This document shows, in pieces, positions 6,173-13,914 of a stretch of DNA of 33,715 nt; within the stretch, counting starts at the first letter, position 1; each line of letters opens with the position of its first letter. This DNA comes from Candidatus Moraniibacteriota bacterium. GTDB lineage: Bacteria; Patescibacteriota; Minisyncoccia; Moranbacterales; GCA-2747515. The stretch lies in contig JAGLWU010000023.1 in assembly GCA_023133275.1 (NCBI GenBank), positions 1-33,715 on the forward strand, written 5' to 3'. A model generated the notes under the pieces. It was not told where the DNA came from and searched no databases. It saw nothing but the letters and a program-made list of their open reading frames with translations. Both the position numbers and the translations under genes were made by a program.

Positions 6173-9100
6173 TTATTTAGTGAACTTAATCAAAGTCTCA
6201 CCAGCCTTTAAAGCTGTTCTCTTCTGAGCTAACCAAGCTGCTCCTGAAGCAAATATTGTAGCTGCTCCACCTGCTGCAGCTCCAGCTCCAGTTATTGGAG
6301 AACTAGTTCCAGGAGTTACTACAGGAACGACTGACGGACAATAATAACCAAAGTCTGCTCTTTCAAAATCTTCTCCTGAAGAAAGATTGACAGTTGTGGA
6401 ATGATCTAAATTACCATCATAATCGTAAGTTTGATAACAACCTTCTGGCAAAGTCTCAATCGCTACAACAACATCGTATTCACCTTTACAAAGATTATTG
6501 AATTCGTAAAATCCTTGACTATTTGTGTTGTCTTTTTCCACATCATTACCATTGTAAAGTTTCAAACGAACACCACTGATTCCCTCTTCATTAGCATCTT
6601 GCACACCGTCTTTGTCTCGATCATTCCATACAAAATCACCAATTGAACCGTTACATACATCATCCCTTTCTACATCAATCTCAGTAGAATCAAAATCTTG
6701 ATCAGTACTTTCATCACTTTCTCCAGTAACTATCGCTACGTTAGTATATGATTCATCAACATTTTCATCAATACATTCATAACTAAAACTTTCATTTGGA
6801 TCAAGATAAGTATGACCGTATTTATTATCAATTAAATTAGCTGCTTCACTTGTAGTCAAATTACAATCTGAAGCTTTTGCATCATTAACTGAAATCTCGT
6901 TCAATCTAGATGTTCCAGTATTTTCAACTGTTATTCTAAAGTGAGCATCATCTCCCTCATCAATAGTTTGATGATCACTACCATCACGAGCCTCCTTGAT
7001 AATATTTACATCAGTCTCTGTACAATTACAATCAACAATAACATCAGAAGTATCTGTATTGTTTACAGTTTCACCGCCCTCACTCGTTCCTTCAGTAGTT
7101 GCAGTATTGGTATAACCTTGAGTTACATTAGTATCAGTACATGAATAATGAAAACTCTCATTTGGTTCAAGATAAGTATGACCGTATTTACTGTTAATCA
7201 AACTAGCTGCTTCAGTCGTAGTCAAACTACAATCAGCCACAGTATTATCCGTTACAGAAACATTTGTCAATCTCACATTTCCTGTATTTTTAACATAAAT
7301 ATTAAATGTTGCAGTTTCGCCATAATTTACAATTTGCGTATCATCATGATTATCAACATCGTCATCATCTTTGATAATTGTAATAGCTGGATCTGAAGCG
7401 TCTATAACAACAACATCAGACTGATCCTCATCATCAACATCAGTACCATCACCATCTTCACCGTCAACAACTGCAATGTTTGTAAAAGAATTTGTTACAT
7501 TGTCAATCGTACAAGTGTAAGTTTGTGTTTCTCCGATTGCTAAATTTCCAATGTTTTTATCACAGTTTGGAGCTAAAGCATCAGTTACAACTACATTTAC
7601 TAAATCTACATCTCCGTTGTTTGTTACTTTAATTGTGAATGTTGCTGTTTCGCCTTCTTCTACTGTTTGGGTGTCATCGCTGTTGTCGTTATCGTCTTTG
7701 ATGATTTGGATTGAAGGATTGTTCGATATTACTGGTACAATAACCTCACTGTCATCGTCGTCAGTAACATCTCCTGAAGTTCCTACTCCTGTTACAACTG
7801 CGATATTAGTATAACTAGCATCTACATTTTCATCCGTACAAGTGTAATCAAAAGATTCCCAAGGATTCAAATAATCATGACCTGCTCCATATTTAGCTTC
7901 AATTAAAGCTCGAACTTCTTCTGCGTTTCTGTTACAATTTGGAGCTAAAACATCAGTTACAACAATGTCGGTTAATCCCTCGGTCCCTCTATTTGAAACT
8001 GTAATTGTAAATTCTGCTGTTCCATTTTCTTCTACTGTTTGCGTGTCATCGTTATTGTCGTTGTCGTCTTTCACTATCCTAATTTCTGGCTCACACGGAA
8101 CACCTACAATAACTTCACTATCATCATCATCAGTAACATCTCCTGAAGTACTTGTTCCTGTAGTTACTGCAATATTAGTATAATCATCTTCAATATTTTC
8201 ATCTGTACAAGTATAATCAAAAGATTCATCAGGATTTAAATAATTATGTCCTGTTCCGTACTTAGTTTCAATTAAAGTTACCACTTCTCCTGCATTTTTA
8301 GCACAATTTGGAGCTAAAGCATCAGTTACAACAATGTTAGTTAATTGTTCATCTCCATCATTTGTAACCGTAATTACAAATGTAGCTGCCTGACCTTCTT
8401 CAACTACTTGAATATCATCTTTATTACCATCATCATTTTTATCAATGTTGATTGAAGCTCCAGATACTGGCTCTTCCACCACAACATCACTATCATCCTC
8501 ATCATCAACTCCAGTACCATCATTATCTTCACCGTCAACAACTGCTATATTTGTAAAAGAATTTGTTACATTGTCAATCGCACAAGTGTAAGTTTGTGTT
8601 TTTCCGATTGCTAAATCTCCGATTGTTTTGTTACAATTTGGAGCTAGAGCATCAGTTACAACTACATTTACCAAATCTACATCTCCGTTATTTGTTACGG
8701 TAATTGTGAAAGTTGCTGTTTCACCTTCTTCTACTGTTTGAGTGTCATCGTTATTGTCGTTGTCGTCTTTGATTATTTGGATTGAAGGAACACTTGCTAT
8801 AGTTTTTTCTTCAGCACTACAATTACTTGAACTCCCACCGTCTGATCCATCACATGCCCATGTCCAAGGATTCGTGCTTGTTCCTGTTCCAGTAATAGCT
8901 GATTCAATTCCTTGTGTACATAAACTTCCTACTGGCGGAATTTCATCTAAAATTTGTCCACTGTATGTACTATTACATTGTCCGTTCACTGGAGTTTTCG
9001 CTTGAGTTGCTGAACAACTAGCTGTACTTCCTCCGCTTGAACCACCGCATGTCCATGTCCAAGGACTTGCAGTTGTTCCTAATCCTGAAACACCTGAAGC

Positions 9101-9742
9101 AGTTCCTACGCTACATAAATTTGTAGTTGGTTTTGAAGTTAATACTTGTCCGTTGTATGTACTATTACATTGTCCGTTAACTGGAGTTAGTGGAGGAGGA
9201 GTTATATCTTCTAAAAGCATACAGACTGGTATATGACTATTTGAATGGGCTCCCTTATAAGGAATTACATGACGTAACGAAATCATATCTACATTTTCTC
9301 CAACATCTATATTTCCAACATTTCCAGTCCAAAAAGCTTGTTCTTTATAATCTGGAACATCACCAGATTCATTAGTAGCAGCGACAGATTTAGTTCCATT
9401 ATTAGATGCTAAGAACACCCAAAATTTTTCATTTGGTTGTGCTACAGAACTTCTGCCGTCATATCCATCAAAAGACTGTAAAGTTACTGAATATTTACCT
9501 TTTGGAATATTTACGTATTGGTATAATACATCAGACCAAGTACTTGTTTGTTTAGTTGAGATTAATCCGTAACCTTTTGCTGCATTGTCAAATACTATTA
9601 ATCTATCATTTGCTTTTTTCTTTGTCAATGTACAACTTACTGGATAATGAACTGTTTCTGCTTGTGCATCGTAATTGAATGCAAAAAATACTATTACTAC
9701 ACTAACTACTGATAGTATTGTTGTAGTTATTAATTTTTTCAT
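6173..9742 (-). CDS. Large secreted surface protein: two CNGxC/WTC-type Cys repeats, six DUF11-like Ig-type repeats, SdrD B-like domain, C-terminal TGAG + hydrophobic + basic anchor
   Basis: 1189 aa; N-terminal signal peptide; repeats starting '[50 protein letters not shown]'; '[34 protein letters not shown]' (SdrD B-like); C-term '[28 protein letters not shown]'. Confidence 0.85.
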   Translation of the reverse strand: [1189 protein letters not shown]

Positions 9743-11393: not shown

Positions 11394-11423
11394 TTGACAT
11401 AATAATAATAATAATAATATAGA
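11394..11423 (+). promoter_or_regulatory. Promoter with ATA-microsatellite spacer
   Basis: TTGACA (11394-11399), 18-nt spacer, TATAGA (11418-11423); (ATA)7 from 11399 to 11419. Confidence 0.6.
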
Positions 11424-11508
11424 ATGACTTATTCAGTTAAAATGTTTTGACTGATAGATGGATGCAATAATTTTGTATTTAAAAACCTTTTCAAGGAGGA
11501 AAATAATC

Positions 11509-11679
11509 ATGAAACTTACAAAAAGGTTTCTCGCAATAAACATTCTTTTAGGATTGCTTCTCACAGGATGTTTTGGAGAAAGTAATTCAGGTAGAGTTTG
11601 GGGCAATAGAATTGAAAGCAGTCTATCCTTAGAAGCAAACAAGGACATGCACGCCGAAGATGTTGGTCCTAAACAGTAA
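11509..11679 (+). CDS. Small lipoprotein, 56 aa
   Basis: MKLTKRFLAINILLGLLLTGCFGESNSGRVWGNRIESSLSLEANKDMHAEDVGPKQ; lipobox LTGC; strong SD (AAGGAGGAAA) before ATG 11509, so the 11458 start in the ORF track is probably too early; promoter and terminator flank it. Confidence 0.8.
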   Translation: MKLTKRFLAINILLGLLLTGCFGESNSGRVWGNRIESSLSLEANKDMHAEDVGPKQ

Positions 11680-11688
11680 AATCTCATT

Positions 11689-11746
11689 CACCCGCTATCA
11701 AAAATTCGTAACAACGAAAAGTCTATCTTAGCGGGTGGACTTTTTT
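11689..11746 (+). terminator. Terminator after the 56-aa lipoprotein
   Basis: CACCCGCTA...TAGCGGGTG stem (9 bp), nested TTCGT-AACA-ACGAA hairpin in the loop, then GACTTTTTT. Confidence 0.7.
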
Positions 11747-11982: not shown

Positions 11983-12010
11983 TTGACTATTTAAATAAAT
12001 TTGCTAATAT
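11983..12010 (+). promoter_or_regulatory. Extended -10 promoter for the ncRNA candidate
   Basis: TTGACT (11983-11988), 16-nt spacer ending TGC, TAATAT (12005-12010). Confidence 0.65.
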
Positions 12011-12016
12011 TGAGAT

Positions 12017-12161
12017 GTAAAAGTCTTCAGAATGAAGAGTTGAATAAACTGCTTTGGCAGTCCATGAAACCAACTTAGAAAATAGGGAAAAAGTTTACTT
12101 TTTCCGTTACTTTTTTCAAAGGATTCATACGCTTTTCTGCATTGAGGACTTTTGCGTTTTT
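12017..12161 (+). ncRNA. Structured small RNA candidate, 6S RNA-like layout
   Basis: 5' GTAAAAGTCTTCAGAATG pairs with 3' CATTGAGGACTTTTGC; inner helix ATGAAACC (12064-12071)/GGATTCAT (12121-12128); side hairpin ACTGC-TTTG-GCAGT (12048-12061); apical hairpin GGAAAAAG-TTTA-CTTTTTCC (12086-12105); U-tract; extended -10 promoter upstream; no ORF. Confidence 0.6.
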
Positions 12162-12270: not shown

Positions 12271-13914
12271 TTAGATTTCATCCTCATCTTCAATTTCCCT
12301 TTTTATTGGTAACTTCATTATAAATTTTGAGCCTTTATCCAAGCCTTCTGAATAAGCTGTTATTGTTCCACCATGTTTTTCCACTAAACTTTTTACAACA
12401 AAGAGACCCAAACCTGTTCCCTCCACTTCAGAAGATGACTCTTGCCCTCTGGTAAATTTTTCAAAAAGATTACTTTTAGTTCTTTCAGTCATGCCTCTAC
12501 CCGTGTCCTCCACAGAAATTTTAATAAATCCTTCTTCTTTTTCTGCCAAAATTTTTACACTTCCCTTAGGAGTATATTTAACTGCATTGTCAATTATATT
12601 TGAAATCACTTCTCGAATCTTATTTTTATCTGCTACTATTTTGGGAAGTGCTTTTTTGGGACACTTGACTGAAAATTTAAGTTTATTTTCTTTAGTTCTA
12701 ATTGCAAAAGTGCTTTCAAGTTCTTCTAAAATTTCTTGGATGTTTACTTTTGTGAATTCGTATTTTAAATGACCTGATTCTATCCTCGATGTAGTTAATA
12801 AATCTTCTATTAAATTGGTCATTCTTTCGTTGGCTTTATAGACTTTTTCTAGGGCTTCTATTGCTCGTTTATCACATTTGCCAAAGTTTCCATCTAGGAT
12901 CATTGCGGTATATCCTTTTACGGCTGTTGCGGGTGTTCGTAATTGATGTGTTGCTACAGAAAGAAATTCGTTTTTTGCTTTGTCTAATTCTTTTAGTTTT
13001 TTTGCTGTTTTCTCTAATTTTTTATTAGCTTTTTTTAAACGTTTTTGTATTTTTCTTAAACGTTCACTTTGCCTCTTCTCCTCCCTTGAAATCTTAATTA
13101 AAAGAATTGAGAAAAATAAGAAAATTAAAAAATTAAAAATATGAAAAATGGATTCATTCAATGATTCAGTAAAAAAAATTTCAACAAAAGAAATAGTTAA
13201 AAGCAATCCCACAACTAATTGAATACGTAATGATTGCATATTCATTAAATTATGCTTAGAAATAGAATAGCTAATCAAAAAAATAAAGGCAAAAATCAAA
13301 AGAAAATTCCCGTAAGGCAAAAAATTTATCCCAAACCACAAAGGAAAATTAGTTGTACCCGCCCCTAAACTTATAAAAAAAGCAACAAAAATAACTTTAT
13401 ATTTATTTTTTTGTACTTTATTTTTTTCTTTAAAAATTGAGTGTAGTATGTCTAAAGCTCCCATTAAATAAAAACCACCATAAATAAAAATTATATAATA
13501 TATATACAAAAATCCAGCTTTTGGCCAAAATTCAAATCCCGCAATAGATCTTAATTCTGTAAAATAAAGATTAGAAAAAGCAAATAATGAAAATGAAAAA
13601 GTTAAAATATAACCAAAAATAAACAAATATTTTCTTTTTTTATTTATTAATATAGTAATCCAATGATAATATAATATAGGTATAAATGTAGAGCCTATAT
13701 TTAACATTCCAACCCAAAAAAAAGCTACCTTATATGAATTTGAACTTAACCAAAAATAATAACTAACAGCCCACATACCAGAAAAAAGCATTAGTGTGCT
13801 AAAAACTATTTTATTAAAGTTCTTATTTTTACTTAATAATGATATAATTCCTAATACTACCAATGCTAATCCAAATATGAGTAGTATGAAAGAATATAAT
13901 ACATTCAGACTCAT
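12271..13914 (-). CDS. Sensor histidine kinase with N-terminal 7TM-type membrane region
   Basis: 547 aa; multiple TM segments then 'EFLSVATHQLRTPATAVKGY' (HisKA), 'REVISNIIDNAVKYTPKG' and 'ISVEDTGRGM..GTGLGLFVVKSLVEKHGG' (HATPase). Confidence 0.92.
   Translation of the reverse strand: MSLNVLYSFILLIFGLALVVLGIISLLSKNKNFNKIVFSTLMLFSGMWAVSYYFWLSSNSYKVAFFWVGMLNIGSTFIPILYYHWITILINKKRKYLFIFGYILTFSFSLFAFSNLYFTELRSIAGFEFWPKAGFLYIYYIIFIYGGFYLMGALDILHSIFKEKNKVQKNKYKVIFVAFFISLGAGTTNFPLWFGINFLPYGNFLLIFAFIFLISYSISKHNLMNMQSLRIQLVVGLLLTISFVEIFFTESLNESIFHIFNFLIFLFFSILLIKISREEKRQSERLRKIQKRLKKANKKLEKTAKKLKELDKAKNEFLSVATHQLRTPATAVKGYTAMILDGNFGKCDKRAIEALEKVYKANERMTNLIEDLLTTSRIESGHLKYEFTKVNIQEILEELESTFAIRTKENKLKFSVKCPKKALPKIVADKNKIREVISNIIDNAVKYTPKGSVKILAEKEEGFIKISVEDTGRGMTERTKSNLFEKFTRGQESSSEVEGTGLGLFVVKSLVEKHGGTITAYSEGLDKGSKFIMKLPIKREIEDEDEI

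Follow-up and report, generated by a model that had tools for sequence, protein, structure and literature searches.

A gap between two genes in the genome of a Candidatus Moraniibacteriota bacterium raises the question of whether it holds a gene for a structured RNA and, if so, whether that RNA is a 6S RNA. The gap lies in contig JAGLWU010000023.1, whose whole stretch of 33,715 nt was analysed and is referred to below as the window. A preliminary description, made from the letters of the window, had placed there an unannotated structured non-coding RNA (ncRNA) of about 145 nt, with a promoter of its own and a 6S-like layout. Patescibacteria, the group to which this genome belongs, represent a very large and mostly uncultured share of bacterial diversity.

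Predicted gene boundaries and distribution

The preliminary description saw no ORF here, and the open-reading-frame listing has none of at least 80 aa in the gap holding the ncRNA gene. The candidate gene and its signals, numbered according to the window, are the following:

12017 to 12161, plus strand: ncRNA gene, with a predicted transcript of about 140-145 nt, supported by the stability of its fold (z = -5.1) and by a covariance-model match
11983 to 11988, plus strand: putative -35 element TTGACT, separated by a 16-nt spacer from the -10 element
12002 to 12010, plus strand: putative extended -10 element TGC-TAATAT, with similar hexamers in nearly all 48 aligned homologs
12150 to 12161, plus strand: U-rich tail TTTTGCGTTTTT past the closing stem P1, a probable terminator

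The start is predicted to lie near 12017 because of the -35 element TTGACT, the 16-nt spacer and the extended -10 element found upstream; these coordinates agree with the extended -10 and the start at about G12017 proposed earlier, to which the -35 element is now added. Among the 48 aligned homologs, nearly all carry TATAAT, TATACT or a close variant as the -10 element upstream of the RNA, and these hexamers mostly end 3-8 nt ahead of the model start. At the other end of the gene, the 3' strand of P1 is followed in the window by GTTTTT, and a T run occurs at the end of P1 in most of the 48 homologs.

On its upstream side, the gene is preceded by a small ORF ending near 11679 and then by a terminator-like hairpin (11716-11745), while the gene downstream (12271-13914, minus strand) is convergent and, by eye, histidine-kinase-like. 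The small ORF (11510-11679) opens with MKLTKRFLAINILLGLLLTGCFGE, which resembles a lipoprotein signal, and an ATA/TAA trinucleotide repeat run (11400-11425) is located upstream of it. Elsewhere in the window, the minus strand at 6173-9742 encodes a secreted protein of 1189 aa, showing repeated domains of the type 'NPSIQIIKDDNDN...TVEEGETATFTI', which look DUF11/SdrD-like by eye; close to its C-terminus it has a hydrophobic stretch.

A plain DNA search detected homologs of the RNA in 19 of 57 genomes, the window's own included. The aligned copies are about 121-183 nt long and share the islands CUUCAGAAU ... GAAACCCACCUGG ... CAGGGAAAAA ... UUUUUUCCGAUAC-UUUUUUCAAGGGAUUCA ... UGCAUUGAGG. With E-values that are to be taken as rough, since they derive from home-made covariance models, a model built from 24 copies identified a single copy each in 75 of the order's 131 genomes (E <= 0.01), of which 68 reached E <= 2e-15, and the covariance-model match in the window spans 12018-12156 (107 bits, E 1.5e-23). 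The remaining 56 genomes of the order, some of them highly complete, gave no match, and the strict filters may have missed diverged copies. Outside the order, matches were obtained in 5 genomes belonging to two further families of the same class, all Patescibacteria. A second model, built from 48 copies and run with strict filters on 380 genomes across the phylum, matched only the window's own order; such filters were applied in all searches over more than 40 genomes, and absence from some families is thus unproven. When 84,980 named genomes were scanned for an exact pattern, confirmed copies appeared in Ca. Moranbacteria / Moraniibacteriota and in other Patescibacteria MAGs, the named relatives carrying the RNA being mostly Ca. 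Moranbacteria. Pattern matches in other phyla, as well as a single one in a viral contig, were rejected for having no covariance-model match, and no copy of the RNA was found in the phage and plasmid records searched. We likewise discarded (i) an RNA of a mobile element or phage, given the one copy per genome and the lack of a phage or plasmid match, and (ii) apparent second genes on the opposite strand, as these model matches of 24-33 bits are reflections of self-complementary loci.

At the gathering score, no family of Rfam 15 matches the window, and up to E = 10 only scattered chance matches appeared in the window stretch and 20 homologous loci, none of them recurring at the RNA. ARAGORN reported neither tRNA nor tmRNA in the window, and the literature on 6S, ncRNA and SRP RNA in Patescibacteria/CPR yielded no description of this RNA. 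Judged by sequence comparison, the predicted RNA is a new family, absent from Rfam and common to Moranbacteria-type Patescibacteria.

The genes that flank it vary. In the neighbour survey, 84 mechanically called ORFs gave 65 clusters, none with more than 5 members. Strands counted by hand at 42 loci showed a convergent downstream ORF in 29 cases and a divergent upstream ORF in 32. Varied neighbours, mostly of opposite orientation, together with a -10 element of its own, argue for an independent RNA that would act in trans, and not for a leader or riboswitch. Hence, it is strongly supported that positions 12017-12161 on the plus strand of the window encode a predicted stand-alone structured RNA gene with its own promoter. 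This part of the preliminary description is borne out by the conservation of the RNA and of its promoter, by the lack of a conserved neighbour, and by the covariation presented below.

Secondary structure and covariation

From the 5' to the 3' end, the predicted structure consists of the following elements:

12017 to 12030, plus strand: closing stem P1, 5' strand GTAAAAGTCTTCAG, pairing with 12142-12155 over 14 bp
12031 to 12033, plus strand: asymmetric internal loop, 5' side AAU, conserved
12034 to 12040, plus strand: P2, 5' strand, pairing with 12131-12137
12048 to 12061, plus strand: side hairpin P3, ACTGC-TTTG-GCAGT, 5 bp in the window
12065 to 12071, plus strand: P4, 5' strand UGAAACC, pairing with 12121-12127
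12074 to 12086, plus strand: hairpin P5, CTTA-...-TAGG (window copy read by eye), with CCUG/CAGG in relatives
12086 to 12105, plus strand: hairpin P6, GGAAAAAG-TTTA-CTTTTTCC, sharing G12086 with P5
12106 to 12120, plus strand: J6/4, open U-rich strand GTTACTTTTTTCAAA past P6
12121 to 12127, plus strand: P4, 3' strand (GGATTCA), pairing with 12065-12071
12131 to 12137, plus strand: P2, 3' strand, pairing with 12034-12040
12138 to 12141, plus strand: internal loop, 3' side UGCA, conserved
12142 to 12155, plus strand: closing stem P1, 3' strand TTGAGGACTTTTGC, pairing with 12017-12030

The window's copy folds at -48.7 kcal/mol, as compared with -29.6 +/- 3.8 kcal/mol in 200 shuffles (z = -5.1), none of which was equally stable. 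In the alignment of 48 copies, which was fitted to a model containing the tested structure and is biased towards it, 19 pairs change on both sides (12.1 +/- 1.6 in shuffled alignments), 128 cells carry both-side changes (38 +/- 6 shuffled), and the covariation score reaches 0.257 (0.146 shuffled). None of 500 shuffles attained the observed value of the pair, cell or score measure, and the covariation score fell to 0.03-0.11 when the pairing partners were shifted by one to three columns. The same covariation picture was seen in an earlier, unfitted MAFFT alignment. Covariation across related genomes, which the preliminary description had named as a check, is thus present beyond all 500 shuffles, and by this comparative evidence it proves the predicted helices P1, P2 and P4.

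P1 shows changes on both sides at 7 of its 11 model pairs and is 98% paired among the 48 homologs; its 14 pairs in the window, followed by the T run, are close to the roughly 15 claimed at the outset. The internal loop next to it reads GAAU/UGCA in 33 of 48 copies and GAAA or GAAC opposite CGCA in 10, the two sides co-varying, and it looks like a putative non-Watson-Crick motif. P2 is a helix added by the comparative data: its sequence is hardly conserved, yet it is paired in nearly every member, and cognate arms pair at -9.2 kcal/mol as against -5.95 kcal/mol when arms are swapped between members (permutation z = -10.8).

The side hairpin ACTGC/GCAGT of the preliminary description exists as P3. 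Its length varies from 5 bp in the window to far longer in L004 and L005, and it is absent from most members (e.g. L009). What had been taken for the central bubble is a lineage-specific side-hairpin junction missing in most members, and the true open strand is situated deeper in the fold, on the 3' side between P4 and P6. Members of the window's family may carry a long optional hairpin on the 5' side (P3), and those of other families have theirs at a different point, the 3' side of P2, a comparison that drew on L004, L005, L006 and L008 versus L009, and on L040 and L018. The P2 junction behaves as though insertions might be tolerated there.

The second helix described earlier, TGAAACC/GGATTCA, corresponds to P4, and covariation agrees with it: A-U, G-C and C-G alternatives are found at one position, as compensatory changes, and the helix is 98% paired. 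P4 is absent from the single-sequence minimum-energy fold, but is proven by covariation. The long apical hairpin claimed beyond it did not survive the comparative data, being replaced by the small hairpins P5 and P6 and then the open strand at 12106-12120. Of the 48 homologs, 47 form P5 as a local hairpin, with a mean of -3.6 kcal/mol versus -0.4 kcal/mol for shuffled sequences. In P6 (GGAAAAA/UUUUUCC), four A-U columns retain A in the 5' strand in 45 to 48 of the 48 copies, with hardly any covariation; this near invariance suggests that the P6 sequence itself is constrained, beyond pairing. The J6/4 strand extends over 14-16 nt past the C of P6 in all 48 copies, and at five of its columns U is present in 39 to 46 of them. 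Overall, comparison shows the predicted fold to run from P1 through the internal loop, P2, the optional P3 and P4 to a three-way junction of P5, P6 and the open U-rich strand.

6S RNA and other identities weighed

The 6S model RF00013, a search with which had been proposed as a check on the 6S identification, found nothing at E <= 10 in the window or the 20 homologous loci, nor at E <= 1 in any of 37 relatives' genomes, as compared with matches in 5 of 14 control genomes. Canonical 6S RNA, as known from lactic acid bacteria and B. subtilis (PMC8414754, PMC8876501), leaves a large 5' central bulge open as the template for product RNA and has a hairpin facing it on the 3' strand (PMC8414754). 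Here the sides are reversed: P5 forms on the 5' strand in 47 of 48 members, and it is the 3' strand that stays open. As in 6S, the 5' and 3' ends are paired in a closing stem (P1, 14 bp in the window); a long apical arm with a -35-like region is absent, P6 measuring ~8-9 bp. The closing stem, bubble and apical stem of the suggested 6S architecture thus stand, while the missing RF00013 match and the reversal of open strand and hairpin mean that membership of this predicted RNA in the 6S family is not supported.

A kinship of function is a separate matter, and the best single functional guess, offered tentatively, is that the RNA acts as a 6S-type mimic for RNA polymerase, a functional analogy to 6S or Ms1. 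P4 and the closing stem would then represent the downstream duplex, the P4-P6 bubble the melted promoter and P6 the upstream duplex; the RNA polymerase holoenzyme would bind, be blocked, and might copy a short product RNA off the ACCUGG strand. The presence of a closing stem, a bubble and an apical stem speaks for this proposal, as do the GAUACU- or GUUACU-like hexamers (G(A/U)UA(C/A)U) right after P6, which put TATAAT-like letters on the 3' strand of the central bubble, where known 6S carries a -10-like element. On average, these hexamers agree with TATAAT at 3.5 of 6 letters, the figure over all positions being 1.8, but just 10% of members have 5 or 6 matches. Truncating B. subtilis 6S-1 down to its bubble plus two short arms abolishes neither RNA polymerase binding nor product RNA synthesis in vitro (PMC8876501), and as no canonical 6S was detected in the 37 relatives, the role would be vacant. 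Apart from the failure of RF00013 to match, even at E = 10, and the reversed sides (PMC8414754), the proposal has to contend with an apical stem that is very short and whose nearly invariant A-U sequence is not predicted by 6S.

Other identities fare less well. The tmRNA (RF00023) and RNase P RNA (RF00010) models do not match at the RNA and find their targets at other loci of this genome (G000:C47 and G000:C51), so that the RNA is neither of the two. That it could be a cis-acting leader (riboswitch or attenuator) or a 3'-UTR structure of a neighbouring gene, as its intergenic position and terminator-like end would allow, is most improbable in view of the -10 element of its own in nearly all members, the lack of a downstream gene family in common and the orientations counted above. 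A base-pairing regulatory sRNA, in which an open segment (the U-rich J6/4 or CCACCU) would pair with mRNAs, has on its side a conserved single-stranded U-rich strand, a C-rich segment and the layout of a free-standing sRNA gene; we consider it unlikely, as P4 and P5 sequester CCC and CCU in almost every member, both ends are closed in P1, and the helices and the structured loop, rather than an open seed, are the most conserved parts. A diverged SRP RNA (4.5S) would account for a housekeeping RNA that seems missing, the SRP RNA models RF00169 and RF01854 having found none in the relatives (0/37 and 0/19), and size and closed ends would fit; nevertheless, we hold it to be very improbable, because the helix-8 motif is absent from the RNA, the M domain of its partner Ffh (PF02978) was detected in none of 19 relatives but in all 14 controls, and the main contig of G025, a near-complete relative that carries the RNA, revealed no SRP-type GTPase P-loop (three contigs, the main one of 826 kb; L103-L146).

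Independently of the ncRNA question, the signal recognition particle is seemingly missing from the group (relatives G000-G036 and the phylum sample). A small-SRP model gave no match in 192 genomes spread over the phylum, and the helix-8 pattern (GGAA-type loop, asymmetric loop) was found in none of 19 relatives. We found no literature on an apparent SRP loss in the group, though it is possibly known.

Proposed role and comparison with known systems

Taking these data together, we consider it fairly probable that the locus is the gene of a new stand-alone, trans-acting, protein-bound family of structured RNA of Moranbacteria-type Patescibacteria. RNA polymerase would, more tentatively, be its single likeliest partner. 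Its transcription, to go by the sequence signals, would be constitutive, starting from its own sigma-70-type promoter and ending at the P1 closing stem, and the product would act in trans, bound to protein. Contacts may be made through the invariant internal loop of P1 and the sequence-constrained P4-P6 core, with P2 and P3 serving as spacers.

A more detailed picture, which we put forward as possible although rather doubtful, is that of a new housekeeping-type RNA of this branch of Patescibacteria in which J6/4 would be docked in the major groove of P6 (C+.G-C / U.A-U triple helix), controlling a general machine, e.g. RNA polymerase in place of 6S, in cells seemingly without SRP. A C followed by at least 4 U occurs in J6/4 in 26 of 48 members, as compared with 3.8 expected by shuffling, and the strand polarity is predicted to be compatible with a parallel U.A-U triplex. 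The intact P6 accompanied by a broken U-run in several members counts against it, and the J6/4-P6 triplex is speculative.

A single copy, a strong structure and a consensus promoter, kept in genomes of ~0.6-1.4 Mb, suggest that the RNA likely matters to the cell. The covariance model and the conserved promoter provide a ready probe for metatranscriptomes, and the RNA itself is a concrete target for pull-down. If it binds RNA polymerase, 6S-type control would have been kept, or re-invented, in reduced cells.

Among known systems, the RNA is like bacterial SRP RNA (RF00169, RF01854) in being a small, housekeeping-type RNA with closed ends, and unlike it in having neither a helix-8 motif nor a model match, and in occurring in genomes where no Ffh was detected. 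Its P1 closing stem may resemble that of the Ro-binding Y RNA. With 6S RNA (SsrS, RF00013) it shares a stand-alone gene, a closing stem, an internal bubble and an apical stem; the 3' bubble strand may also have -10-like letters in common with it. It differs from 6S in that (i) it has no covariance-model match, (ii) it is shorter (about 121-183 nt), (iii) it bears its hairpin on the 5' bubble strand with the open strand 3', the reverse of the canonical arrangement, (iv) its apical stem is very short and nearly fixed in sequence, and (v) its core sequence is strongly conserved, whereas little sequence is conserved in 6S RNA. Ms1 RNA has a length of about 300 nt. According to PMC9130861, Ms1 is a lineage-specific structured RNA of Actinobacteria, occurring where 6S is not found, and binds core RNA polymerase. 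Set beside Ms1 by description and by the Rfam scan only, the present RNA is likewise a lineage-specific structured RNA in a group where 37 relatives showed no 6S.
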